A stretch of 64,000 nucleotides of DNA. It comes from a virus. Each line of letters starts with the position of its first letter. The stretch's first letter is position 1. The notes below the pieces were generated by a model. It ran no database searches. It was not told where the DNA came from and saw nothing but the letters and a program-made list of their open reading frames with translations. Location: positions 30,776-94,775 of the IMG/VR virus record IMGVR_UViG_3300022074_000013, one strand, 5' to 3'. Below are positions 16,185 to 53,556 of the stretch, in pieces. The translations under genes and the position numbers were made by a program.

Positions 16185-16192
16185 TATAAATA
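16185..16192 (+). promoter_or_regulatory. Late promoter 5 bases before the portal start codon
   Basis: TATAAATA ends 5 bases before the ATG at 16198, so the predicted transcript begins at the start codon. A GGGGAG lies upstream of the box (16179-16184), usable only by read-through RNA and rather far from the ATG. Confidence 0.65.
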
Positions 16193-39452: not shown

Positions 39453-40400
39453 ATGAACAATGAATTTTTATTTGTAGAGAAGTATCGTCCTCAAAAGATT
39501 GACGACTGTATACTTCCAAGTGACCTGTATGCCACATTCAAAGACATAGTAGAAACGGGTGAGATACCTAATCTTATGTTGAATGGTACTGCAGGTTGTG
39601 GTAAAACAACTGTAGCGAAGGCACTTTGTAATGAACTAGGTGCAGACTTTATAGTTGTCAACGGTTCTGATGAAGGTAGATTGATTGATACCTTGAGAAC
39701 CAAAATCAAAAACTTTGCGTCCACCACCAGTTTGTCTGGCGGCCCTAAAGTAGTTATTCTAGACGAAGCAGACTACATTAGTGCCGAATCTGTGCAACCT
39801 GCTCTGCGTGGATTCATTGAAGAGTTCAGTTCTAATTGCAGGTTCATTATGACTTGTAATTTCAAGAACAGAATTATCAATCCTTTGCATTCAAGATGTA
39901 CTGTGATTGACTTCAAGATTCCTAGTAGTGAAAAACCTAGACTTGCAAGTGTGTTCTTAGCAAGACTCATGGAGATATGTACGCTAGAAGAAATCAAGTT
40001 CAACAAGGACGTACTTGCTGAACTTATCATGAAATTCTTTCCCGACTTTAGACGTTGTCTAAATGAGGTTCAAAGATATGGTATCGGTGGTGAAATCGAT
40101 ACTGGATTACTTTCTACTCTTGCAGAAGAGAAGATTACGCCATTGATAAATACACTCAAAGAAAAGAAGTGGACTGAAATGCGTAAGTGGGTCGGTGAAA
40201 ATTCTGACAATGATTTATCTGTAATGTATAGAAAGATTTTTAACGCACTCGAACATAAACTCGAACCTGCCTCAATACCTGCATGTGTTTTAATCATAGC
40301 AGACTATCAGTACAAGACTGCATTTGCAGCTGATTCTGAAATTAATTTAGTTGCATGTTTGACCGAGATTATGTCGGAGTGTAAATTTAGGAGTAAGTAA
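39453..40400 (+). CDS. 44: Clamp loader large subunit gp44
   Basis: 315 residues, T4 size (319). FVEKYRPQKIDDCILP start, Walker A GTAGCGKTT, Walker B VVILDEADYI, and the SRC motif PLHSRCTVIDF. It loads gp45 with gp62. It ends in a TAATG overlap with a peroxiredoxin gene that separates it from 62. Confidence 0.95.
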   Translation: MNNEFLFVEKYRPQKIDDCILPSDLYATFKDIVETGEIPNLMLNGTAGCGKTTVAKALCNELGADFIVVNGSDEGRLIDTLRTKIKNFASTTSLSGGPKVVILDEADYISAESVQPALRGFIEEFSSNCRFIMTCNFKNRIINPLHSRCTVIDFKIPSSEKPRLASVFLARLMEICTLEEIKFNKDVLAELIMKFFPDFRRCLNEVQRYGIGGEIDTGLLSTLAEEKITPLINTLKEKKWTEMRKWVGENSDNDLSVMYRKIFNALEHKLEPASIPACVLIIADYQYKTAFAADSEINLVACLTEIMSECKFRSK

Positions 40401-40930
40401 TGTTAGGAATGCTAACTGTAGGTGACCAATTCCCGCCTGTAAAATTAAATGGAATTGACGCTAACAATGACTTCGTTGAAGTTCAAATCGCTGAGGGTTA
40501 TACGCCACTCAAACATGAGTGGACAGTAGTTTACTTTTATCCAAAAGACTTTACTTTTATCTGTCCAACTGAGATTGCTGGTATGGACATATTAGTTGAC
40601 CATGCAAACGTGATTGGTATTTCAGGTGATAATGAATTCTGTAAGTCTGCTTGGAAACAAGCGAATGGTGTTATTAGAGAAATCAAACACACACTTGCGG
40701 CTGATTGTGGACTCAAATTATCTTCTGAACTTGGCATTGTCAATGAAGAACAAGGTGTCTGTAATCGTGCAACATTTATCTTTGATAAAGATAGAGTCAT
40801 TCAACACGTATCAGTCAATGGATTATCTACTGGTAGAAATGCTCAAGAAGTTCTTAGAACTTTGAAAGCAATTCAAGCTGGTGGATTGACTGGTTGTGAA
40901 TGGAACGAAGGAGACGATTTCGTTGCATGA
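40400..40930 (+). CDS. Peroxiredoxin (AhpC/TSA family)
   Basis: 176 residues. WTVVYFYPKDFTFICPTE gives the peroxidatic Cys55 with its conserved Pro/Thr surroundings. The later Arg lies in CNRATFIFDKD. A C-terminal Cys166 (GLTGCEWNEGDDF) is the likely resolving residue of a typical 2-Cys enzyme. It reduces peroxides using thioredoxin or glutaredoxin. The site, translationally coupled between the two clamp-loader subunits, is unusual. It probably protects replication from oxidative stress during infection. Confidence 0.92.
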   Translation: MLGMLTVGDQFPPVKLNGIDANNDFVEVQIAEGYTPLKHEWTVVYFYPKDFTFICPTEIAGMDILVDHANVIGISGDNEFCKSAWKQANGVIREIKHTLAADCGLKLSSELGIVNEEQGVCNRATFIFDKDRVIQHVSVNGLSTGRNAQEVLRTLKAIQAGGLTGCEWNEGDDFVA

Positions 40931-41202: not shown

Positions 41203-41597
41203 AGAAAACTAATCCGTTTGATTTTGTTAAATCTGTATCCCATACCAAAAAAGATATTATGGTGGACGATATTGCTGAGAAGCAGTATGCACCATTCATA
41301 ACTAATAAAGCATTATCCTATCACCAAGACGCAGTTTATTTTGCAAATGAAATGAACATACGTCATGGTGTAGATAACCGCCTTCAATACCTTTTTTATC
41401 TAAATATACTAAGGAAAAGACAAAGATTTTCAACTTGGTCTAAACCCTATATTAGTAAAAAGTTAGATACAATCAAGGACTACTATCAAGTAAGTAACTT
41501 AAAAGCAAAGGAATATTTGGAAGTTCTTACTGATAAGCAGGTTCGTGAATTGAAAAAAAGAATGACAAAAGGTGGCAAGGATAATGGAAAGTTATGA
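41199..41597 (+). CDS. 62: Clamp loader small subunit gp62
   Basis: 132 residues, shorter than T4 gp62 (187) but typical for marine relatives. PFDFVKSVSHTKKDIMVDD, then YFANEMNIRHGVDNRLQYLFYLNILRKRQRFSTWSK are conserved. It bridges gp44 subunits. It overlaps regA. Confidence 0.9.
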   Translation: MKKTNPFDFVKSVSHTKKDIMVDDIAEKQYAPFITNKALSYHQDAVYFANEMNIRHGVDNRLQYLFYLNILRKRQRFSTWSKPYISKKLDTIKDYYQVSNLKAKEYLEVLTDKQVRELKKRMTKGGKDNGKL

Positions 41598-42000
41598 GAA
41601 TGAAGTCAAAGACTTAATTGAAGTTACATTCCCCGAAAAAGACGATTTTTTAAAGATACGTGAGACTCTCACTAGGATTGGTGTAGCGTCACGTAAAGAA
41701 CAAGAGTTATATCAGTCTTGCCATATCCTACACAAACGTGGGAAGTATTACATAACCCACTTCAAAGAACTATTCATACTGGACGGTAAACCTAGTAACC
41801 TAGACGAGAATGATATTGGTAGAAGGAATACCATTATCAACCTTCTACAACAATGGAGCCTACTTAAAGTATTGAATCCTGACAGTATCAAAGAACCTAC
41901 CGCACCTCTATCACAGATTAAAATCATTCCTTTTAAAGAGAAAAAGGAATGGATTCTCACACCTAAATACAATATCGGTAACAATAAAGCACCCGAATAG
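41584..42000 (+). CDS. regA: Translational repressor RegA
   Basis: I take the ATG at 41584 (MESYENEVKDLIEVTFPEKDDFLKIRETLTRIGVA), with AAGGAT upstream, over a GTG 12 bases earlier. About 138 residues. LYQSCHILHKRGKYYITHFKE and EWILTPKYNIG are the family blocks. It represses early mRNAs by binding at start regions. The structured gene 44 leader is a possible target here. Confidence 0.93.
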   Translation: MESYENEVKDLIEVTFPEKDDFLKIRETLTRIGVASRKEQELYQSCHILHKRGKYYITHFKELFILDGKPSNLDENDIGRRNTIINLLQQWSLLKVLNPDSIKEPTAPLSQIKIIPFKEKKEWILTPKYNIGNNKAPE

Positions 42001-42796: not shown

Positions 42797-42824
42797 GTCC
42801 ATATCTATAAATAGTCGTATGGAC
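42797..42824 (+). promoter_or_regulatory. Late promoter inside an inverted repeat, head of the curli cluster
   Basis: TATAAATA (42806-42813) ends 5 bases before the ATG at 42819. GTCCATA (42797-42803) and TATGGAC (42818-42824) pair perfectly around it and cover the start codon. This is the only clear promoter directly upstream of csgF/csgG. Confidence 0.75.
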
Positions 42825-43112
42825 ATATTTCAATTTTTAAGTGAAGTCGGAATCCCTATCGGGACTGCGGTAGTGATGGCTTTCTTTATCTATCTGACCT
42901 TAAAATATATTTTTGAGTCTGTACTGGGTCAGATTTCGTCCACCGAAAACATTATAAGCATGCTCGAAACACGAGCACGTGTTATGAATAATGATATTAT
43001 TAAAATAGATTTATTAGTAAGTAGTGCATTAGAACTAGCACCACCAATTGACCGTGTTGCTAGAGCAGAAAACTTTGTTGAGGATGGAAGTATAGACGCC
43101 AGACGAGACTAA
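42819..43112 (+). CDS. Small membrane protein, holin-like topology
   Basis: 97 residues. An N-terminal membrane segment (IPIGTAVVMAFFIYLTLKYIF) is followed by a helical cytosolic or periplasmic part (STENIISMLETRARVMNNDIIKIDLLVS). The next gene is similar in plan (opening 'FGFP/VGIP' before the membrane segment), so the two look like diverged paralogues. Their start of the curli cluster under a late promoter suggests a role in lysis timing or membrane organisation. No family is proven. Confidence 0.55.
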   Translation: MDIFQFLSEVGIPIGTAVVMAFFIYLTLKYIFESVLGQISSTENIISMLETRARVMNNDIIKIDLLVSSALELAPPIDRVARAENFVEDGSIDARRD

Positions 43113-43116
43113 GACC

Positions 43117-43413
43117 ATGGAAAATCTTGCTCAATTAATCGCAGAGTTTGGGTTTCCAGTTGTAATGTCTATGGGTATGGGATACTTCATATGGTATGTT
43201 TGGAAATTCATTACCATTGAAGTTAAACCAGCACTCGGACGCATGTTTACAGCAAGTATAAAATTGACTGACCAGCTAAGAATGCTAGACCAAGACATGC
43301 TTCGTCTTCAAGAAAAGGTGAACACTGTTTTGGAATATCGTGAGCGCCAAGAACTTTTGCAGGACGCAAAAGAAAAGCAGGCACTCGAAGAGGTAACAAA
43401 TGAAAAGAAGTAA
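43117..43413 (+). CDS. Small membrane coiled-coil protein, YvrJ/holin-like
   Basis: 98 residues. ENLAQLIAEFGFPVVMSMGMGYFIWYVWKF resembles the start of YvrJ-type and related small holin-like proteins. A long heptad helix follows (LTDQLRMLDQDMLRLQEKVNTVLEYRERQEL). It overlaps csgF by 14 bases, so it is co-translated with the curli pore genes. Confidence 0.55.
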   Translation: MENLAQLIAEFGFPVVMSMGMGYFIWYVWKFITIEVKPALGRMFTASIKLTDQLRMLDQDMLRLQEKVNTVLEYRERQELLQDAKEKQALEEVTNEKK

Positions 43414-43891
43414 AATTTTTGGTATAACATTTGCAATGATAACACTATGTGTCATTTCTCCGACAGTACAATCAGACGAACTGGTACATAAATTTAAAAA
43501 CCCCAGCTTTAGTGGCGTGGGAACTTCTGCCCATTACTTGACAATTGAGAATCAGGAGAAGTCTAGGACAGACAAGATTGCTGAGGACATTAGGGCAGCT
43601 CTTTTGAAACAGCAAAGAGAAGCAGAAAATACAGTTTTAGCCAAATTCATAAGGAATTTGGAATCGAGAATCTATGCTCAGCTATCAAAACAGTTAGTTG
43701 AAAACATGTTCTCAAACGAAGAAGGTGCAAACTACGGAACGTTTACACTGGAAGGAAATACAATTACTTACGAAAGGAAGAACATATGTACTGATGACGG
43801 ACTATGTGACGATTGGATTGTAATGACAATTGTCGGTAGTGACGGAACTACAACAACTATTGAAATTCCAATTGGTACTGGGGGTTTTTAG
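43400..43891 (+). CDS. csgF: Curli assembly protein CsgF-like
   Basis: 163 residues with a signal peptide (SKIFGITFAMITLCVISPTVQS). The mature start DELVHKFKNPSFSG parallels the CsgF N-terminus 'FxNPxFGG' that inserts into the CsgG pore. The C-terminal domain (GTFTLEGNTITYERKN...DDWIVMTIVGSDGTTTTIEIP) matches the CsgF beta domain. In curli systems CsgF binds CsgG at the outer membrane and couples secretion to nucleation. A longer helical middle and a Cys pair (ICTDDGLCDD) are distinctive. It overlaps csgG by one base. Confidence 0.88.
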   Translation: MKRSKIFGITFAMITLCVISPTVQSDELVHKFKNPSFSGVGTSAHYLTIENQEKSRTDKIAEDIRAALLKQQREAENTVLAKFIRNLESRIYAQLSKQLVENMFSNEEGANYGTFTLEGNTITYERKNICTDDGLCDDWIVMTIVGSDGTTTTIEIPIGTGGF

Positions 43892-44799
43892 TGAAGAATC
43901 TTTTATTAGTTGGAGTGCTCGGACTCTTGCTATCTAGTTGTGCAGGGATACCGCACATGAAAGATTCCTGTACATCTCTGATAATGAATGAGTACGGAGA
44001 ATGTATTGAAGAGCCTGAAGCAATCAAACTTCCAGCATATGCATTATTATTAGATTTACCAGCCGCTGAGGTTATGCCAGTGGTTGCTGTTTATGGGTTT
44101 AAAGACCTAACAGGACAAAGAAAAAGACAAGACGGTGTCGCAACATTTAGTACAGCAGTCAGTCAAGGAGTGACTGCAATGTTGATAGACGCACTCAAAA
44201 CTGCAGGGGGTGGAAGTTGGTTCCGTGTAGTTGAAAGAGAAGGATTAGATAATCTTGTACGTGAAAGACAAATAGTCAGAAGTACAAGAGAACAATTTCA
44301 AGAAGAGGGTGAAAGTAAAGAAACTATTCAACCTCTTTTATTTGCTGGCATCATACTCGAAGGTGGAATTATAGGGTATGATACCAATATGGAAACTGGT
44401 GGCCGAGGTGCAAGAACATTAGGGATTGGACACTCGACTGCTTATCGTAGAGATACGATTGTCGTTTCTTTAAGAGCAGTTAGTACACTTACTGGTGAAG
44501 TTCTTATGAACGTTCAGACCAAGAAGACTGTACTAAGTGTATCGCAAGGATTCGATGTATTTAAATTTGTAGATATGGATACCCAACTCATTGAAATTGA
44601 GGACGGTGTGACAGAGAATGAGTCGGTGACTTTTGCAACGAGGGCTGCTATAGAAGCTGCTGTTCTAGAAATGATTTATCAAGGACACGATAGAAAATAC
44701 TGGACAATTGACGGCCGACATAGACACCCTCATAAAATAGATGGCGGTAATGAAAGACATGCCATCGAGGAGAATAAAGACGAATATGAAAATGAATAA
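43891..44799 (+). CDS. csgG: Curli secretion channel CsgG-like lipoprotein
   Basis: 302 residues from GTG overlapping the csgF stop. Lipoprotein signal with lipobox LSSC (Cys17). The core VVAVYGFKDLTGQRKR, FSTAVSQGVTAMLIDALK, WFRVVEREGLDNLVRERQIVR is textbook CsgG. GILLEGGIIGYDTN type strands and RDTIVVSLRAVSTLTGEVL follow. CsgG forms a nonameric outer-membrane pore. With CsgF encoded directly upstream, a complete CsgGF pore could be made. The Lol pathway of the host would be needed. Confidence 0.93.
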   Translation: MKNLLLVGVLGLLLSSCAGIPHMKDSCTSLIMNEYGECIEEPEAIKLPAYALLLDLPAAEVMPVVAVYGFKDLTGQRKRQDGVATFSTAVSQGVTAMLIDALKTAGGGSWFRVVEREGLDNLVRERQIVRSTREQFQEEGESKETIQPLLFAGIILEGGIIGYDTNMETGGRGARTLGIGHSTAYRRDTIVVSLRAVSTLTGEVLMNVQTKKTVLSVSQGFDVFKFVDMDTQLIEIEDGVTENESVTFATRAAIEAAVLEMIYQGHDRKYWTIDGRHRHPHKIDGGNERHAIEENKDEYENE

Positions 44800-45511
44800 A
44801 CTAAAATTATGTTTAGGTTTATTGTTTGCAATGTCTGTAATGCCTCTTTTAGCTGATGACGACAACGAAATATTTTTGCAACAATCAGGTGATACGTTAA
44901 CATTAACGATTGACCAAGTTGGTTACGGAAATAAATTCGGTGGAACTATAGTAAACGGTCAGGTTGCTACTGATATGATTTTGACAGGTACAACGAATAC
45001 GTTCAACCTTGACCAAATCGGTAACAGCAACCAACTATTCGGGCCTGTTGTGTTAGATAGTTCTACCATTAATATGGTATTCACTGGTGACAGTAATATC
45101 TTTGATTGGAATATAGGCGATACTGGTGATTCTGATAACTCAAACATCAATGTCGCAGTTACAGGTAGCAGTAACACTTGGGATTATGACCAAGGTTATG
45201 CCGCTAGTGCTAACTATTTGGATTTTGATTTAACGCTAATAGGAGATTCAAACGATTTCTTTATAGACATAGATTCAGACCAAGCTAAATGGGAAATGGA
45301 AATTACTGGTGACAGTAATAACGTTGACACAAAACAACTTGACGCATCTGACCATGAATTAAAAGTGGTTCATACGGGTGATAGTATCAATATGGATATT
45401 ATTCAACAGTCAGGTACATGTGGAAATAAAACATGCCCAGGCAAGATTGACTTACAGTTGAGTTCTGATAATGCTACAGTTACAATTAACCAAAAAGATA
45501 CTAACGATTAG
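44786..45511 (+). CDS. Curlin-like secreted repeat protein 1
   Basis: I choose the ATG at 44786 (MKMNKLKLCLGLLFAMSVMP), which starts a signal peptide ending ...PLLA and has GAGGAG upstream; longer frames are not needed. About 241 residues. Repeats of the curlin type: TIDQVGYGNKF, FNLDQIGNSNQLFG, then many TGDSN/TGSSN units spaced about 20-30 residues. It ends IIQQSGTCGNKTCPG with two Cys. It is acidic (Asp-rich). It is the probable cargo of the CsgGF pore. Confidence 0.75.
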   Translation: MKMNKLKLCLGLLFAMSVMPLLADDDNEIFLQQSGDTLTLTIDQVGYGNKFGGTIVNGQVATDMILTGTTNTFNLDQIGNSNQLFGPVVLDSSTINMVFTGDSNIFDWNIGDTGDSDNSNINVAVTGSSNTWDYDQGYAASANYLDFDLTLIGDSNDFFIDIDSDQAKWEMEITGDSNNVDTKQLDASDHELKVVHTGDSINMDIIQQSGTCGNKTCPGKIDLQLSSDNATVTINQKDTND

Positions 45512-46604
45512 TGCTATACTTCTGTCGTATCCCTCTTATGCGGATACGATAGGAGACATAGTCGAACAAACTGGTATTGGAAACATTATCAGAGAAGGTA
45601 ATAAAATACCCTCTACTGATTTTCCTAGTATAAACCTCTATGACGAGGCGGAAACTGGGAATGGGAGAATGCTAATTGAGTTCTTAGACGAAGAAGAACT
45701 TGCATTAACAGAACATACACTGGTCTACATAGACGAAGTATATTATGACCCTAATCCCGACTTATCGAAAATGTCGATGAGAATGGTAATGGGTACAGCT
45801 CGTTTTGCCTCAGGTAAACTAGGTAAAATGAATAAATCGAACATTGCGATTTCTACGCCAACTGCTAACATAGCGATTAATGGCACAGATTTTACGACAA
45901 CCATCGATGAACTCGGGCGAAGTCTTATTATACTTTTGCCTGACGCAAATGGTGACGCATCAGGTTCGATTACAGTTAGTAATGAATCGGGTACAGACGT
46001 AGTATTAGAAGAAGCATATCAAGCCACAATGGTATCTACTTTAAATTCATACCCAACTGCACCTGTAGTAATAAACAATATTACATCAAGTTTGATTAAT
46101 AATATGTTTATTGTGAGTCAACCCAAAGATATTTCTAGGGTGATAGAGGAGTCTGCTACAGAATCAAATGACGGTGGTATCTTGGACGTAGACTTTTTAG
46201 AGTTTGACGGTCTTGATGCAGACGCATTGAAAGACTCAGAAGGTGAATTAGAATTTACTGAATTAGATATAGACCTATTAGATGTTGACTTTTTACAGGA
46301 CTTACTTGATATTGTAGAAGAGTTAGATAGGAAAGTAGGGATAAACAGAACTGCAGACAGTGGTGGAAATACATTTGGAATAGAAGGTACTGCTATAGGT
46401 TTTGATAAAGACACGCAGTACAATACAATAGTTGATACAGGAAGTGGATTGGTTACGTTCTATCGTGAAGTAAACGGAACCATAAGTATTAAATTACCAG
46501 TAGACGCAATGGCACAAATAGTGACCGTAACTAACGAAAAGGAGAGTGTAATTAATATGGGTGGCGACCAAGCAATCAATATTATTATTACACAACAAAA
46601 TTAA
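45471..46604 (+). CDS. FecR-domain secreted protein
   Basis: 377 residues. Signal peptide LTKKILTISAILLSYPSYA, then a FecR domain: NGRMLIEFLDEEELALTEHTLVYIDEV, MVMGTARFASGKLGK, NIAISTPTANIAINGTDF. Unlike sensor FecR proteins it has no cytoplasmic anti-sigma part or membrane anchor, so it is periplasmic or exported. A very acidic Leu/Asp repeat (about 235-290) follows. FecR and CHASE2-cyclase genes are often neighbours in bacteria, as here. It overlaps the curlin-like gene by 41 bases. Confidence 0.82.
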   Translation: MLQLQLTKKILTISAILLSYPSYADTIGDIVEQTGIGNIIREGNKIPSTDFPSINLYDEAETGNGRMLIEFLDEEELALTEHTLVYIDEVYYDPNPDLSKMSMRMVMGTARFASGKLGKMNKSNIAISTPTANIAINGTDFTTTIDELGRSLIILLPDANGDASGSITVSNESGTDVVLEEAYQATMVSTLNSYPTAPVVINNITSSLINNMFIVSQPKDISRVIEESATESNDGGILDVDFLEFDGLDADALKDSEGELEFTELDIDLLDVDFLQDLLDIVEELDRKVGINRTADSGGNTFGIEGTAIGFDKDTQYNTIVDTGSGLVTFYREVNGTISIKLPVDAMAQIVTVTNEKESVINMGGDQAINIIITQQN

Positions 46605-46744
46605 TGAGCCAAAAACAACAACAGCAAAGACTTAGATTTCAAGAAAAGAAAATTAAAGACCAAGCAGAAACAATTGCAGAACAACAAAAAAGAATAGAAG
46701 AGTGGATAAAACAACAACAAGACCCACGTCACAATCAAGAATGA
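46604..46744 (+). CDS. 46-residue Gln/Lys-rich coiled-coil peptide
   Basis: MSQKQQQQRLRFQEKKIKDQ, then AETIAEQQKRIEEWIKQQQDP. It starts in a TAATG overlap with the FecR stop and ends in an ATGA overlap with the next curlin-like gene, so it is probably translated as a link in the operon. Highly helical; role unknown. Confidence 0.55.
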   Translation: MSQKQQQQRLRFQEKKIKDQAETIAEQQKRIEEWIKQQQDPRHNQE

Positions 46745-47409
46745 AAATAACTGGAACTCATTTAGGGATTGCAGTAATTTTATTGTTCTTTGTAGGACAG
46801 TGCTTTGCTGGTGACGAACATAATCATGTGCACATAGACCAAGTTGCTGACGGTGATAATGCAAATGTTAACATTACGCAGATAGGATATGATAACCATA
46901 TCGATTTTACTTTTGCACATGCTAACAACACTTTTACTCTATCCCAATCAGGGAATGGTAACTCAATCTCTTGGGTATCATACTGGGGTTCAGGAAGAAC
47001 TTGGGGTGGTGATGTTGACGGTACTGGTAACACAGAAACAGTAACACAGATTGACGGTGCTACATACGGTAGACACATATGGGGTAACAATAACGAAGTT
47101 GACGTTTACCAAAATGGAACTCACGAATTCAATTTAGACATTCACGTTAATGGTGTAGAACACGAAAACTGGCAAGAAGGTTCAGGAAGTCATTACGCAC
47201 ACATATACTATTATCAAAATTCACATGATTCAATCACAGATATTGAACAAAAAGGAAGTGGTAGTCATCAAGCAAGAATAACACTACAAGGTTCAGAACA
47301 TACTAATTTAAATCTATTACAACAAGGTTCGACTAATCAGTCATACAATATAACAAATACCTGCCATACAGTAGGTGGTTGCAGTATAAACGTTTCTCAG
47401 GGCAACTAA
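46741..47409 (+). CDS. Curlin-like secreted repeat protein 2
   Basis: Start at 46741 (MKITGTHLGIAVILLFFVGQ), a signal peptide ending QCFA; the frame upstream overlaps the small gene and is not needed. 222 residues. Curlin-type units QxGxxN: NITQIGYDNHI, FTLSQSGNGNSI, VDVYQNGTHEF, ITDIEQKGSGSHQ, LNLLQQGSTNQ. His- and Asn-rich, with a final CHTVGGC Cys pair as in curlin-like protein 1. The two may be major and nucleator subunits, like CsgA and CsgB. Confidence 0.75.
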   Translation: MKITGTHLGIAVILLFFVGQCFAGDEHNHVHIDQVADGDNANVNITQIGYDNHIDFTFAHANNTFTLSQSGNGNSISWVSYWGSGRTWGGDVDGTGNTETVTQIDGATYGRHIWGNNNEVDVYQNGTHEFNLDIHVNGVEHENWQEGSGSHYAHIYYYQNSHDSITDIEQKGSGSHQARITLQGSEHTNLNLLQQGSTNQSYNITNTCHTVGGCSINVSQGN

Positions 47410-47412
47410 ATA

Positions 47413-47451
47413 AAAAACCCTCTTATAATTACTCAAACATTGAGGTATAAT
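47413..47451 (+). promoter_or_regulatory. AAAAACCC/TATAAT promoter of the SleB-cyclase pair
   Basis: AAAAACCC (47413-47420), -35-like TTATAA (47423-47428), TATAAT (47446-47451), same geometry as 26372 and 50521. There are 7 bases to the ATG at 47459, so nearly or fully leaderless. It separates these two genes from the late curli operon in time. Confidence 0.65.
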
Positions 47452-47458
47452 AGTGTAT

Positions 47459-47947
47459 ATGAAACTAATAAATATCTTAGTATTTTGTGCGCTTCTTTTA
47501 GGAGCTACAAAAGTGGAAGGTTTAGAACTAGAGATGGACACTCATTGTCTTGCTCAAAACATATATTTTGAAGCAGGTAATCAACCTCTTGCAGGACAGA
47601 TTGCAGTTGCTAACGTAGTTTTAAATCGTGTAGAACATGATAAATTTCCCGATTCAATTTGTGGAGTAGTTTATCAAACAAAAGAATGGCGAACCTCTTG
47701 GACAGGTAAGACCATTCCTAAATTAGGAATGTGTCAGTTCTCTTGGTTTTGTGATGGCAAATCAGACAAACCAAAAGACAGTAAAACTTGGGCGGAGAGT
47801 TTAAAACTTGCAGACGAAATACTGGACGGTCAGTATTTTGATTTGACAGAAGGTGCAATGTGGTATCATGCGTATTATATACAACCATATTGGAGTCAAC
47901 ATTTAAACGAGACAGTACAAATATCCGCACATATATTCTATAGGTAA
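47459..47947 (+). CDS. SleB-like cell wall hydrolase (Hydrolase_2)
   Basis: 162 residues from the ATG at 47459; a GTG 6 bases earlier is possible. Signal peptide KLINILVFCALLLGATKVEG. The domain has CLAQNIYFEAGNQPLAGQIAVANVVLNRV with the catalytic Glu, then ICGVVYQTKEW, CQFSWFCDG and AMWYHAYYIQPYW. SleB/CwlJ enzymes are lytic transglycosylase-like murein hydrolases. Secreted to the periplasm, it could open the wall for the CsgG pore or take part in lysis, in addition to the lysozyme at 53553. Confidence 0.88.
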   Translation: MKLINILVFCALLLGATKVEGLELEMDTHCLAQNIYFEAGNQPLAGQIAVANVVLNRVEHDKFPDSICGVVYQTKEWRTSWTGKTIPKLGMCQFSWFCDGKSDKPKDSKTWAESLKLADEILDGQYFDLTEGAMWYHAYYIQPYWSQHLNETVQISAHIFYR

Positions 47948-47952
47948 AATCT

Positions 47953-49803
47953 ATGTATAAATGGTGGACGGTTTTAATAACCATCGCTCTTCTAGCAGGT
48001 CTTCGTATATCAGACCCGTTTCTCATGGAGTCAATCCGACTCAACTATTTTGACTTTTTACAAACTCAAAAGGAACCTATACAGGTTGACGATATTGTAT
48101 TAGTTGACATAGACGAAAAGACATTAGAAAAATACGGACAGTTCCCATTCCCTAGAGGCGTATGGGCAGACATGATAAATCAAACGTCCGAAACAAATCC
48201 TTCCGTCCTTACTGCTACATTTGCACAACCTGATAGATTCGGGGAAGACGAAGAACTTAGACAAGCATTAGGAAACAGACTTTCCCTTCTTTCTGCCTCA
48301 CCAACTAATCAAAAAGATACTGGAAGTGCACCATATATTGGTATTGCAAAGTTAGGTAAAGGTGACCCTGCAAACTGGTTATACAGTTATGAGGGTATCT
48401 CTAGTCCCATACAACCCCTACAGGAGGCGGTTTACGGTGTAGGTACTGTAAGTGCTTCACCTTCTATAGACGGAACTGTACGTGCAGTTCCACTCGCTGT
48501 CATGGCGAATGGACAGATATATCCTTCTCTCGCACTAGAAACATTGAGAGTTATGAATGGTCAACAGTCCTACAATATAAAGATTACGCCTGAGGTTGGT
48601 GTAGAATGGGTTAGGATAGGTAGACTACCACCATTAACAGTACAACCTAATGCAGACTTTAATATTGCATTTTGGAATCAGTTTGAACGTGTCAGTGCAG
48701 TGGACAAAATCCCTGCAGATAAAATCCTTATATGGGGTCTGACTGCTTCAGGTCTGAGTAATCCAGTTTCAACCCCAATGGGTGCAATGTATCCCCATGA
48801 AGTACAAGCGAATTTAATTCAGACCGTCTTGACAGGATTCCAAATACAACGATTCTACTATCTTGAATTTCTTGAAATTTTTCTTGTTCTGTTTTCGTCT
48901 CTAGTAATACTGGCAATGGTCTACAGACTTCCCACAGTTCTTTCGGGGATAGGGAGTCTAAGTGTCGTTGGATTGCAGGCGTATACGGGGTATTACGTTT
49001 GGATTGAGAACTTGATTTTGCTCGATGTCTTTTACTCATCAGTTGCCTCATTGTTAGTTTTTGGTCACGCATCTTTCAACAAATACTTCACTACGTATCA
49101 ATTGAAAGAACAAATAAAGAAACAGTTCCAAAAATATTTATCGCCTGACATGGTTGAAGAACTACAGAAAAATCCTGAACTATTGAAATTAGGTGGAGAT
49201 AGAAAGGAACTTTCCTTCCTTTTTGCCGACATTGTTGGCTTCACTCCCATAAGCGAAAAGTATATGAAAGAAGATGACCCCGAAGGATTGGTTGAACTTA
49301 TCAACAAATTCCTAGACGCAATGTCAAAAGTCGTTCTTGCACATGGCGGAACCATCGACAAATATATGGGCGATTGTTTGATGGCATTTTGGAATGCCCC
49401 TTTGGATTGTCCAAACCACGCTGAAATGGCGGTTAGAAGTGCTATGGAAATTGAACTGCTTACTGAACAAATGAACAAGGAACTCAAAGAACAGGGATAT
49501 GATTTACCACCCGTTGTAATTGGCACAGGAATAAATACTGGCCCATGCATCGTAGGAAACATGGGAAGTGAGGCAAGATTCGATTATTCAGTTGTCGGTG
49601 ATGCAGTTAATCTAGGTGCACGTCTTGAAGTTCAAACAAGAACATTTGATACACCTATTATCCTTTCACAATACACACTTGACCAATTGCCTGACGATAT
49701 CAAAGTAAAAGAACTTGATAAAATAACTGTAAAAGGTAAAGAAGAACCTGTTACCATTTACGCACCATACTTTAAACGCACAATTAGAAAACTAAAGAAA
49801 TGA
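47953..49803 (+). CDS. CHASE2-domain class III adenylate cyclase
   Basis: 616 residues. The N-terminal membrane segment is WWTVLITIALLAGLRI. A periplasmic CHASE2 sensor (about 25-295) has DDIVLVDIDEKTLEKYGQFPFPRGVWADMI. Three membrane helices follow (about 300-372), then a class III cyclase domain. The metal Asp pair lies in LFADIVGFTPIS and KYMGDCLMAFW, with the transition-state Asn/Arg in VVGDAVNLGARLE. The Lys/Asp at the purine-recognition positions favour ATP. All catalytic residues seem intact. It would make cAMP in response to an envelope signal. Next to FecR and curli genes this is a signalling module, very unusual in a phage. Confidence 0.92.
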   Translation: MYKWWTVLITIALLAGLRISDPFLMESIRLNYFDFLQTQKEPIQVDDIVLVDIDEKTLEKYGQFPFPRGVWADMINQTSETNPSVLTATFAQPDRFGEDEELRQALGNRLSLLSASPTNQKDTGSAPYIGIAKLGKGDPANWLYSYEGISSPIQPLQEAVYGVGTVSASPSIDGTVRAVPLAVMANGQIYPSLALETLRVMNGQQSYNIKITPEVGVEWVRIGRLPPLTVQPNADFNIAFWNQFERVSAVDKIPADKILIWGLTASGLSNPVSTPMGAMYPHEVQANLIQTVLTGFQIQRFYYLEFLEIFLVLFSSLVILAMVYRLPTVLSGIGSLSVVGLQAYTGYYVWIENLILLDVFYSSVASLLVFGHASFNKYFTTYQLKEQIKKQFQKYLSPDMVEELQKNPELLKLGGDRKELSFLFADIVGFTPISEKYMKEDDPEGLVELINKFLDAMSKVVLAHGGTIDKYMGDCLMAFWNAPLDCPNHAEMAVRSAMEIELLTEQMNKELKEQGYDLPPVVIGTGINTGPCIVGNMGSEARFDYSVVGDAVNLGARLEVQTRTFDTPIILSQYTLDQLPDDIKVKELDKITVKGKEEPVTIYAPYFKRTIRKLKK

Positions 49804-50522: not shown

Positions 50523-50574
50523 AAACCCACTATACAGACATACGCTTGTTTAGTATAATAGGTGTATGTCTGTA
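50521..50574 (+). promoter_or_regulatory. TATAAT promoter inside an 11-bp inverted repeat
   Basis: AAAAACCC (50521-50528), TATACA -35 (50531-50536), TATAAT (50554-50559), 6 bases to the ATG at 50566. TACAGACATAC (50533-50543) pairs perfectly with GTATGTCTGTA (50564-50574), which includes the start codon. Read-through RNA would hide the start; the local transcript lacks the left arm. Confidence 0.75.
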
Positions 50575-51702
50575 ATTCTATCTAAAGAAGATTCTCTTTA
50601 CGCCTCGCAAATCTATATAGATTTCTATAATGGGTTTGACCGTATTGACGATTATCTACGTAAAATCAAATTAGAACGTGTTGCTAATCTACCAACGTCA
50701 TTGCCTGGCATGGGGCCAGAAGATGATATGTTTAGTGACTTCACAATGCACCCTCATGACATGGAATTTGAATGTAGAGTCTTATCAAATGACCTATATG
50801 ATAACTACCTAGAAATCACCACGTCTCATGCTTTAGAGAAGTCAATTCCTGGCAAGACATTGAAGTGGGTTGTGTATGAAAAAAACACAAACAAGATTAT
50901 GGGTTTTATTAGATTCGGTTCACCAACAATTAATTCTAAACCTAGAAATGTTATGTTAGGTAAACCTTTAGATACTATGTGTAAAGATACAATGAAGAGG
51001 TTCAATGATTCGGTTATTATGGGATTCACCATTGTCCCTACTCAACCATTTGGATATAATTATCTTGGTGGTAAGTTACTTGCAGCTATATGTTGTTCAC
51101 ACCATGCTAGAAGAACATTAAACAAAAAATACAATACAAAATTTTGTGGTTTTGAAACAACTTCTTTATACGGTTCGTCAAAGACTTCTTCACAGTATGA
51201 CGGTATGAAACCTTTCTTAAGATTTAAAGGATTGACCGTATCAGATTTTGTGCCTTCTATTAATGACCAAAACTATAGAGACTTGAAGTATTGGTTTGAA
51301 ACTAAAAATGACGGTAAACCATTAGTTCATGATGACGCTTCGTCAAGAAAAATGAAGACTATTCAGAAACAAATTTCTATGATAAAGAACTCACTAAATA
51401 TACACGACAAAGAAAAGTTAAAAGAATTCAATCAAGCATTTGAAAATGCAAAAGGTCTAACGGAACAGAAGAGACAATACTTTTCAAATTATGGTTATGA
51501 GAATGTAGTGGATTATTTAAATCTAGAAACAGACGAATTAAAGAAAGCACCCAACTATGATAGATACGAGTTAGAAGGTGTAGTTGACTGGTGGAAAAAA
51601 CTTGCTGGTAAAAGATATGACAAACTTAAATCCGAAAACAGACTCAGAACTGAACTAGAAACATGGAATGTTAATGCAGAAAACATTGACATTATCCGAT
51701 AA
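50566..51702 (+). CDS. Unassigned protein, acyltransferase/DUF4338-like core (tentative)
   Basis: 378 residues. The middle (about 95-225) reads KWVVYEKNTNKIMGFIRFGSP, then SVIMGFTIVPTQPFGYNYLGGKLLAAICCS and FCGFETTSLYGSS. This pattern, a GxIxxG strand followed by a 'GGKLLA' helix, is like the GNAT-related DUF4338 domain, but I cannot verify it. The C-terminal 120 residues are helical and Lys-rich. Tightly controlled by its own promoter and hairpin. Immediately followed by a tRNA gene. Confidence 0.5.
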   Translation: MSVILSKEDSLYASQIYIDFYNGFDRIDDYLRKIKLERVANLPTSLPGMGPEDDMFSDFTMHPHDMEFECRVLSNDLYDNYLEITTSHALEKSIPGKTLKWVVYEKNTNKIMGFIRFGSPTINSKPRNVMLGKPLDTMCKDTMKRFNDSVIMGFTIVPTQPFGYNYLGGKLLAAICCSHHARRTLNKKYNTKFCGFETTSLYGSSKTSSQYDGMKPFLRFKGLTVSDFVPSINDQNYRDLKYWFETKNDGKPLVHDDASSRKMKTIQKQISMIKNSLNIHDKEKLKEFNQAFENAKGLTEQKRQYFSNYGYENVVDYLNLETDELKKAPNYDRYELEGVVDWWKKLAGKRYDKLKSENRLRTELETWNVNAENIDIIR

Positions 51703-51707
51703 GTTAA

Positions 51708-51781
51708 GCGGAGATAGTGTAATAGCAACACGCTGTGGTTCCACCACAGAGACGATAGTGCAATCCTATCTCTCCGCTCCA
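51708..51781 (+). tRNA. tRNA-Gly (anticodon UCC)
   Basis: A full cloverleaf by hand: acceptor GCGGAGA/TCTCCGC, D-stem GTGT/ACAC, anticodon stem CTGTG/CACAG with loop GTTCCAC (anticodon TCC at 51740-51742), T-stem GATAG/CTATC with loop TGCAATC. Discriminator T and an encoded CCA end. U73 fits glycine. The T loop lacks the usual TTC start and loop position 32 is G, so it is slightly irregular. It reads GGA, a frequent codon in this AT-rich phage. Confidence 0.9.
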
Positions 51782-51789
51782 GTTTCAAT

Positions 51790-52713
51790 ATGAGTAGAAA
51801 CATACCAACACAGGCAGTTGACCAATATGATTTCCTAGAACACAGAAGGAAACAAGAAGAAAAACATTGGAATAAAAAAAGTAATGAACTCAAACCTCTT
51901 GACTCGATTCTTACAGTTGAAATTAATACTACTGAGTTGTGCAACAGGACATGTGTCTTTTGTCCAAGACATGACCCAACAGTATTTCCCAACAGGAATC
52001 TCCATCTTACGATTAAAGGTGCTAGAACCATTGCAGAAGAATTAGGAGAAAATCAGTATTCAGGTAAAATATCATTCAGTGGGTTCGGAGAAAATTTATT
52101 GAATCCAAACTTTGTAGAGATAGTTAAAGAGTTTAGATTTAATTTACCAATGGCAACAATTGAATGTAATACAAATGGAGACAAACTTACAGAAAAGTAT
52201 GTTGAAAGATTGTATAAAGCAGGACTAGATTTACTGTACATAAATTTGTATGACGGTATAGAACAAATGACACACTTTGAAAAAATGCTAAAGAATGTCA
52301 GAGAAGATATGTATAAATTTAGAATGCATTGGGGAGACTTTGAGAAACATGGATTGATTCTCAATAACCGTAGTGGGGTAATTGACTGGGTTGGGATAGA
52401 AGAAACAGACATTACTTCTTTGAAAGGCAAACCTTGTCATTACCCCTTCTACAAAATGTTTGTTGATTGGAACGGTGATGTTCTATTTTGTTCAAACGAT
52501 TGGGGGAGAGAACATGTTGTAGGTAACTTGCTACAGTCAACATTACATGACGTTTGGTTCAGTAAACCTATGACAAAGATTCGTAAAAGATTAATGAAAG
52601 GTGATAGAAGTCAATCACCTTGTAATAAATGCAGTGTAGACGGTTCACTGTTCGGCAAACCGTCTTTTGATTTGGTAAAAGAATATTATGAAAGTAGCAA
52701 TAACAGGAAGTAG
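51790..52713 (+). CDS. Radical SAM protein with SPASM-like C-terminus
   Basis: 307 residues. The cluster motif CNRTCVFC (CxxxCxxC, about residues 52-59) sits after VEINTTEL. The FSGFGENLLNPN strand follows. The C-terminal region HYPFYKMFVDWNGDVLFCSNDW and SPCNKCSVDG binds a second cluster as in SPASM enzymes. These modify peptides or small molecules. It overlaps the following dehydrogenase gene by 26 bases, so the two may act in one pathway. The substrate is unknown. Confidence 0.9.
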   Translation: MSRNIPTQAVDQYDFLEHRRKQEEKHWNKKSNELKPLDSILTVEINTTELCNRTCVFCPRHDPTVFPNRNLHLTIKGARTIAEELGENQYSGKISFSGFGENLLNPNFVEIVKEFRFNLPMATIECNTNGDKLTEKYVERLYKAGLDLLYINLYDGIEQMTHFEKMLKNVREDMYKFRMHWGDFEKHGLILNNRSGVIDWVGIEETDITSLKGKPCHYPFYKMFVDWNGDVLFCSNDWGREHVVGNLLQSTLHDVWFSKPMTKIRKRLMKGDRSQSPCNKCSVDGSLFGKPSFDLVKEYYESSNNRK

Positions 52714-53254
52714 TGGTCTAGCAAAGACAATTAAAGACACACTAGAAGCAACACCATTTAAAGGTGATACTATAGAAGTACATACACCACGTATGGAAGA
52801 TATCACAATGAATGGTATGAACTGGTGGGGTTGGGCTAATGTTGACGTTTTGATTAATTTTGCACATGACGAATTTGAACAAACAAAGATACTTCAATAC
52901 GCACATGATTCTTGGGTAGATAAAGGAAACAAATATATTATTAATTTTTCTTCAAGAGCTGCTCAACCAAACATATCAAAAGGTTATCTCTATTCAGCTG
53001 CTAAAGCGTCTCTCAATCATTTAGCAAATAACCTACAATACAACTCAGATAAAAAATACAAAATGACAACTTTAAATCTAGGTCTTCTTAATTCACCTAT
53101 GCCTAGTATCTCACGTCAAGAAGTTGCTGGACTGGTTTATAAGTTGATTACAAGTTATCCTGAAATAGAAATAGCAGACATGACAATTCAAGCACACCAT
53201 AATTATAAAGGTGTACAGGAAATGAAGTCATTTCAAAAAGGAGAATTGCATTGA
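52688..53254 (+). CDS. Short-chain dehydrogenase/reductase-like protein
   Basis: 188 residues. KVAITGSSGLAKTI is a TGxxGxG-type nucleotide site, and YLYSAAKASLNHLANNL holds the YxxxK pair with an upstream INFSSRAAQ Ser. It is shorter than most SDR enzymes (about 250) and ends without the substrate-cap region. It probably uses NAD(P)H. Coupled with the radical SAM gene. Confidence 0.82.
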   Translation: MKVAITGSSGLAKTIKDTLEATPFKGDTIEVHTPRMEDITMNGMNWWGWANVDVLINFAHDEFEQTKILQYAHDSWVDKGNKYIINFSSRAAQPNISKGYLYSAAKASLNHLANNLQYNSDKKYKMTTLNLGLLNSPMPSISRQEVAGLVYKLITSYPEIEIADMTIQAHHNYKGVQEMKSFQKGELH

Positions 53255-53556
53255 GTAACAGACCACATTTAATTGGTGAAATGTATAGAGTAGTAGAGAA
53301 TCCTAATCAAAGGGACGAAGAACACTATGCTATAGAAATTATAAAGGGTGAATTCAAAGACACCGTTTATCAATATGGAAAGGTGGAATTCGTAGAAGGA
53401 AAACCTGAACTAAATTTTCAGAGAACTATTAGAAGAGTTCCCGAAGGTATGGACTTGTCAGATTTAGAAAAAGACAATGACCTAAATAACCTCATGGGAG
53501 ATATTCTAGTAGAACTCCTAGAAGAACAAGTCGCAAGAAGCGAGGAGAAAAAATGA
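53251..53556 (+). CDS. Hypothetical conserved phage protein
   Basis: 101 residues. Start TTG at 53251 with GGAG 7 bases upstream; it overlaps the previous stop (TTGA) and no ATG fits before the conserved part. YRVVENPNQRDEEHYAIEIIKGEFKDTVYQYGKVEFVEG looks like a small beta sheet, then helices rich in acidic residues. Not named; related proteins accompany lysozyme genes in marine T4-like phages, as far as I recall. Confidence 0.6.
   Translation: MSNRPHLIGEMYRVVENPNQRDEEHYAIEIIKGEFKDTVYQYGKVEFVEGKPELNFQRTIRRVPEGMDLSDLEKDNDLNNLMGDILVELLEEQVARSEEKK

Follow-up and report, generated by a model that had tools for sequence, protein, structure and literature searches.

Curli genes, known from the csgBAC/csgDEFG operon of Escherichia coli, have also been reported from several phages. 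Zaragoza-Solas 2020 described a cluster of csgF, csgG and curli genes in pelagimyophages (PMC7029224), and a T4-like viral genome assigned to marine Bacteroidetes bears curli genes as well (PMC7198788). For the phage Melnitz, Buchholz 2022 suggested an action as pinholin or secretin in the timing of lysis (PMC9004378). In both podo- and myophages, Wittmers 2022 reported FecR, two CsgA/B-like genes, a cyclase and a histidine kinase ("HK"); according to that study, the curli operons of bacteria lack FecR, cyclase and HK, and it put forward superinfection exclusion, the capture of siblings, import or recombination as possible roles (PMC9599517). Viral curli proteins were present at all 65 GOV2.0 stations (PMC9599517), and among the adherence-type genes of seawater phages csgG is the most frequent (PMC11309003). 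Here, we analyse such a module on the IMG/VR virus record IMGVR_UViG_3300022074_000013, at positions 42819-49803 of the window (the whole stretch of 64,000 nucleotides under study, bases 30776-94775 of the 94,775-bp record). Our preferred reading, to which we assign a probability of roughly 0.55, is that the phage encodes a type VIII (curli) export module of the alphaproteobacterial kind, expresses it late and uses it to bring solenoid proteins to the surface of its host, with the envelope being sensed.

The pelagiphage type VIII secretion systems (HTVC008M- and HTVC023P-type; PMC9599517) resemble the window in having one or two small proteins, CsgF, CsgG, a CsgA/B-like protein, FecR, another CsgA/B-like protein and the cyclase in the same order. 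In contrast, the window carries a SleB gene between curlin-like 2 and the cyclase, and its module is inserted between regA (41572-42000, followed by three small open reading frames) and an Hsp20 gene (50103), whereas the pelagiphage systems lie near gp32 and tail genes. The Melnitz operon (PMC9004378) again follows this order, including FecR, two curlin-repeat proteins and the cyclase, but its wall hydrolase is located ~8 kb away. With the E. coli operon, the window shares the CsgG channel, CsgF and curlin-repeat cargo; it differs in that no CsgE was found (see below), that neither CsgC nor CsgD is among the module genes, and that sm1, sm2, FecR, SleB and the cyclase are additional. Modules with FecR and a cyclase have been published in pelagiphages and methylophages (Zaragoza-Solas 2020, Buchholz 2022 and especially Wittmers 2022), and the central claim of the first-pass annotation of this DNA is a rediscovery: it held that the gene set goes further than known ones, whereas two CsgA/B-like genes, FecR and a cyclase are already contained in PMC9599517 and only SleB is added. 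The insertion of SleB in one lineage is new relative to the published modules. The features are as follows:

42806..42813, + strand: T4-type late promoter TATAAATA, starting 13 nucleotides before the sm1 ATG
42819..43112, + strand: sm1, 97 amino acids (phrog_18771, 4.5e-23)
43117..43413, + strand: sm2, 98 amino acids, paralogue of sm1 (phrog_18771, 2.1e-24)
43400..43891, + strand: CsgF homologue (PF10614, 2.3e-14) with neck peptide FKNPSFSG
43891..44799, + strand: CsgG outer-membrane lipoprotein channel (PF03783, 1.7e-53) with lipobox LSSC
44741..45511, + strand: curlin-like 1 (longest open reading frame; predicted mature part 44855-45508), all beta in the AlphaFold model
45471..46604, + strand: FecR-domain secreted protein (PF04773, 2.6e-6), C-terminal end IIITQQN
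46604..46744, + strand: glutamine-rich coiled-coil open reading frame of 46 amino acids, absent in the near relative L027 and unannotated in HTVC008M and Melnitz
46702..47409, + strand: curlin-like 2 (likely start 46741; Curlin_rpt, 8.8e-7), C-terminal CHTVGGCSINVSQGN
47453..47947, + strand: SleB/CwlJ-type wall hydrolase (PF07486, Hydrolase_2, 3.3e-28)
47953..49803, + strand: CHASE2 and class III adenylate cyclase (PF05226, 3e-32; PF00211, Guanylate_cyc, 4.4e-19)

Gene order, exporter and cargo

All ten open reading frames were recovered on the + strand at these positions, neighbours overlapping slightly or being separated by short gaps, and Pfam and PHROGs confirm CsgF, CsgG, FecR, the curlin repeats of the second curlin, Hydrolase_2, CHASE2 and the class III cyclase. 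Three N-termini are overstated by the longest-frame starts, with likely starts near 44786-44792, 46741 and 47459. Nine of the ten genes (sm1, sm2, CsgF, CsgG, curlin-like 1, FecR, curlin-like 2, SleB/CwlJ and the CHASE2 cyclase) form one co-directional module. The coiled-coil peptide, which had also been counted as a member, is dispensable in relatives (it is missing from L027) and possibly does not belong to the set.

Relatives were collected by a CsgG-profile search of IMG/VR, which yielded 80 loci to which HTVC008M and Melnitz were added, and presence and order were scored per gene with home-made profiles of each module gene. The order sm1-sm2-csgF-csgG-cur1-fecR-cur2-(SleB)-cyclase was found in 83/83 viral loci, which argues that the genes do not stand together by chance; the conserved linkage in related phages on which the first-pass annotation had staked its proposal is present. 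All eight core genes occur in 58 of the 83 loci, and nearly all incomplete loci end at a contig edge, the exceptions being L072 (~1.2 kb remaining after curlin 2, without cyclase) and L030 (~0.1 kb remaining). CsgG was additionally detected on sm-bearing contigs of 217-358 kb (L222, L198, L176 and L195), three of these four with the T4-type head gene Gp23, and the module therefore extends to very large T4-type contigs. In L222, L230, L241 and L191, the cyclase and sm1/sm2 are encoded on opposite strands, i.e., the module is split or rearranged there. Contigs with the phage module also turned up in bacterial genome bins (L086, L089, L088, L087, L095, L103 and L115) labelled Sphingobacteriales, Synechococcus, Rhodobacteraceae, Pelagibacter and Pirellulales; these are most likely misbinned phage contigs. 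An unverified csgG-bearing "Salmonella phage" (L004, GenBank OR851715), a contig of 1.5 kb that has no annotation and whose pore sequence is of enterobacterial type, is probably host DNA and was left out.

The CsgG profile matches solved CsgG over its length (1.2e-63), and at the pore constriction a Phe or Leu is conserved and the neighbouring residues are changed. For CsgF, the comparison of its profile with solved structures gave no match, and the motif FxxPxFxG, the neck peptide that anchors CsgF to CsgG, is kept in 70/71 distinct proteins. By alignment to the E. coli sequence, the two Phe of the phage motif presumably correspond to F26 and F31. These E. coli residues are required for CsgG binding or function (PMC10133297). 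In the Melnitz study (PMC9004378), csgA and csgB were called lacking and the pairing of CsgF with CsgG was doubted, yet Melnitz itself has retained the neck peptide (FGSPSFSG); the conservation of FxxPxFxG thus argues against a loss of CsgF-CsgG pairing in phages.

As to the cargo, the AlphaFold model of curlin-like 1 is confident and all beta, with a solenoid-like appearance (predicted local distance difference test, pLDDT, 87.6; predicted template modelling score, pTM, 0.84), and its best viral structure matches are phage proteins annotated as "Curlin associated" (E 2e-5, TM 0.80). No Pfam family matched curlin-like 1 above the cut-off; it is homologous by profile to curlin-like 2 (hhalign, 98.6%), which carries the Curlin_rpt match. 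The first-pass identification of a curli-like export module with two curlin-type cargo proteins, for which it had looked to an amyloid-like solenoid in structure prediction, is therefore borne out by CsgG, by CsgF with its neck peptide and by both cargo proteins. A terminal motif, [IVLA]x[IVLA]xQ, ends curlin 1 in 66/71, FecR in 60/63 and curlin 2 in 48/55 sequences, as compared to none of the other module proteins and 13/940 other phage open reading frames; the sequences are interrelated, so that these counts do not represent independent events.

The timing of expression, likewise raised by the first-pass annotation, can be judged from promoter elements. Of 63 distinct loci, 44 have the T4-type late element NATAAATA no more than 60 nucleotides before sm1 (expected 1.1), which supports late expression. 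The window holds 25 copies on the + strand and one on the - strand, and the element precedes sheath, portal and scaffold genes. TATAAATA occurs at 42806-42813 and 16185-16192, in both cases ending 5 nucleotides short of a start codon, that of sm1 at the first site and that of the portal gene at the second, and the distance to the sm1 ATG is exactly equal in many related loci. With the spacing of T4 promoters, the mRNA start would fall at or near the ATG, which suggests that the late mRNAs of sm1 and portal may be leaderless.

FecR, the cyclase and a candidate cellular relative

The FecR protein is modelled as a FecR domain, an acidic low-confidence stretch (residues 188-276) and a C-terminal beta module. 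Foldseek retrieved two anti-sigma FecR domains, that of PupR (E 2e-4) and one other (E 7e-4), as well as a 64-column match to the cell-surface anchoring domain 5ix9 (E 0.013). A transmembrane anti-sigma regulator was rejected, since the N-terminus is signal-peptide-like and residues beyond 60 lack a membrane helix in 57/57 proteins. The N-terminal EQTGIGN, considered as a possible curlin repeat, turned out to be the ordinary start of the FecR fold.

In the cyclase, the catalytic metal-binding Asp pair and the substrate Lys and Asp are kept. The Melnitz enzyme (L003:12499-14547) has GDSVSTAAR in place of the Asn-bearing site and a C-terminal extension. CyaD1 without its CHASE2 domain produces cyclic adenosine monophosphate (cAMP) constitutively (PMC5498481).

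Outside phages, Hyphomonas sp. TMED17 (L091, a 705-kb contig with chromosomal neighbours) encodes csgF-csgG-curlin-fecR-CHASE2 cyclase in an order identical to that of the phage module. The operon differs from the latter by the lack of sm genes and SleB, by a single, longer curlin and by a FecR without the IxIxQ end. The curli-FecR-cyclase set hence exists outside phages, contrary to the statement in PMC9599517, which weakens the notion that FecR and cyclase are later viral additions. Among 299 genomes of its order, Hyphomonas sp. TMED17 alone has a full-length FecR relative. At other FecR loci, a gene of the cyclase family adjoins in 9/29 cases (six with CHASE2, three with a cyclase domain in the part examined), and csgG was not found within the 1.4 kb examined around these nine pairs, indicating that the FecR-cyclase pairing is independent of curli. 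These alphaproteobacterial pairs resemble the phage in that a FecR-domain gene adjoins a CHASE2 cyclase, but they differ by having no adjoining csgG and a FecR without the phage-type C-terminal part.

Hyphomonas branches next to the phages or among them in the CsgG and FecR trees. The approximately unbiased test did not reject one common clade of phages (p-AU 0.38 for CsgG, 0.31 for FecR), and two separate phage captures were not upheld, the trees being compatible with a single phage clade. Transfer probably took place from cell to phage.

Function of the module

Signal-peptide-like N-termini are found on CsgF, FecR, both curlins and SleB. In the export reading that we favour, both curlins would cross the outer membrane via CsgG-CsgF and stack into fibres on the surface of the infected cell. 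FecR would act as a periplasmic partner rather than as a transcription regulator, possibly as a plug or anchor, its folded FecR domain remaining in the periplasm and its linker and C-terminal strand attached to the cargo. This envelope state would be read by the CHASE2 cyclase, which would then produce cAMP; sm1 and sm2 would serve as dedicated inner-membrane helpers, and exported SleB could open or remodel the wall locally. The likeliest benefit would be a surface coat that alters contact among the dying cell, competing phages and neighbours. A more specific version, which we regard as rather doubtful, has the FecR domain remaining below the CsgG pore, the acidic linker threading the pore, the curlin-like last strand seeding the outside fibre, and the CHASE2 cyclase sensing plug engagement to generate cAMP.

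Several observations weigh against this export reading or parts thereof. No CsgE was found in the 94.8-kb record, which may be incomplete; of the "complete" curli-like module claimed in the first-pass annotation, CsgG, CsgF and two curlin-type cargo proteins stand, and completeness does not. In pelagiphages, CsgE has been published as absent (PMC9599517). Against the PDB, curlin-like 1 gave nothing significant, its weak top matches being largely beta-solenoids. Homology of the FecR C-terminus to curlins was not established (hhalign P 0.003, probability 10%), and the plug or anchor idea draws on the terminal motif and a model of moderate quality (mean pLDDT 69). The surface fibres are predicted from genes and models, and Melnitz-infected cultures showed no clumping (PMC9004378). 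Finally, Melnitz-type cyclases have lost the conserved catalytic Asn, and the whole operon was found in just one bacterial genome.

The foremost alternative, which we consider unlikely, is a pore for lysis timing or egress, with sm1/sm2 as holins or pinholins, CsgG permeabilising the outer membrane and SleB cutting the wall. It accords with the pinholin or secretin role put forward by Buchholz 2022 (PMC9004378), with the late promoter before the module and with the wall hydrolase. Both sm1 and sm2 are small, with a single N-terminal hydrophobic helix and a helix-rich tail in the alignment (sm1 ends in a conserved DxR[RK]D), and sm2 weakly matches the holin family phrog_4898 (9.4e-4). However, export suits the pair of conserved cargo proteins and the neck peptide of CsgF, and a bare pore does not. 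Moreover, sm2 was found among 50,697 phage records solely in HTVC008M and Melnitz, both curli-bearing, and 79 of its best 80 IMG/VR loci are curli-linked (csgG/F within 4 kb in 75, a cyclase in four more), unlike what is expected of a general holin; sm1/sm2 occur essentially only alongside module genes and hence appear dedicated to the module. A general phage holin was therefore set aside as the main explanation. The published histidine kinase label was rejected, as the proteins comprise 97-98 amino acids and 36 members match no kinase family in Pfam or NCBIfam.

SleB, a predicted exported SleB/CwlJ-type hydrolase with its own signal-like hydrophobic N-terminus in 12/12 distinct homologues, sits inside the module solely in the window and 18 close relatives, so that most relatives lack it there; its nearest phage relatives are wall hydrolases of Melnitz and a Roseobacter phage. 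A separate T4-type lysozyme without signal peptide is encoded at 53553; like the dedicated cargo, it speaks against a pure lysis pore. SleB is therefore not the sole wall enzyme and could act periplasmically without a holin.

We give little credence to an uptake pore, in which ungated CsgG admits nutrients or cofactors to the infected cell and FecR and the cyclase tune the process. It was suggested by Zaragoza-Solas 2020 (PMC7029224) and Wittmers 2022 (PMC9599517) and would suit the missing CsgE gate in the 94.8-kb record, but leaves the curlins, their conserved ends and CsgF unexplained, and FecR, with its signal peptide as the sole membrane segment, does not have the architecture of an iron regulator. 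There is but a faint chance that the curlins, leaving via the same exporter, coat released virions or debris and promote progeny adhesion rather than cover the cell, since the promoter element implies late expression alongside structural genes but signal peptides and a dedicated exporter indicate the cell envelope.

Genomic context and implications

The record carries T4-type genes for tail sheath, portal, scaffold, major head, clamp, clamp loader, regA, DNA polymerase and UvsX. Its DNA polymerase is closest to those of Synechococcus T4-type phages; at just 48% identity, no host is called for the virus. An AhpC/TSA-type peroxiredoxin gene (40400-40930) sits between both clamp-loader subunit genes. 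At 50566-51702, a protein partly matches Druantia DruA (PF14236, 1.4e-8) and strongly matches phrog_19197, a phage family of unknown function. Next to the gene of a Radical SAM/SPASM protein (51790-52713) lie one for tRNA-Gly (51708-51781) and a fragment resembling short-chain dehydrogenases (52688-53254).

In our tests of the labels published for the pelagiphage systems, neither that of kinase for the small proteins nor that of membrane regulator for FecR held up. The functions proposed in the literature rely on two annotations, histidine kinase and iron regulator FecR, for which the sequences give no support. If the module is instead understood as late cargo export, with FecR secreted and the cyclase sensing the envelope, concrete tests follow, and the Hyphomonas operon provides a cellular system for studying the non-phage part of the module. 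If FecR indeed served as plug and gauge, this would be a pore reporting its own secretion state, carried by viruses and first evolved in alphaproteobacteria.

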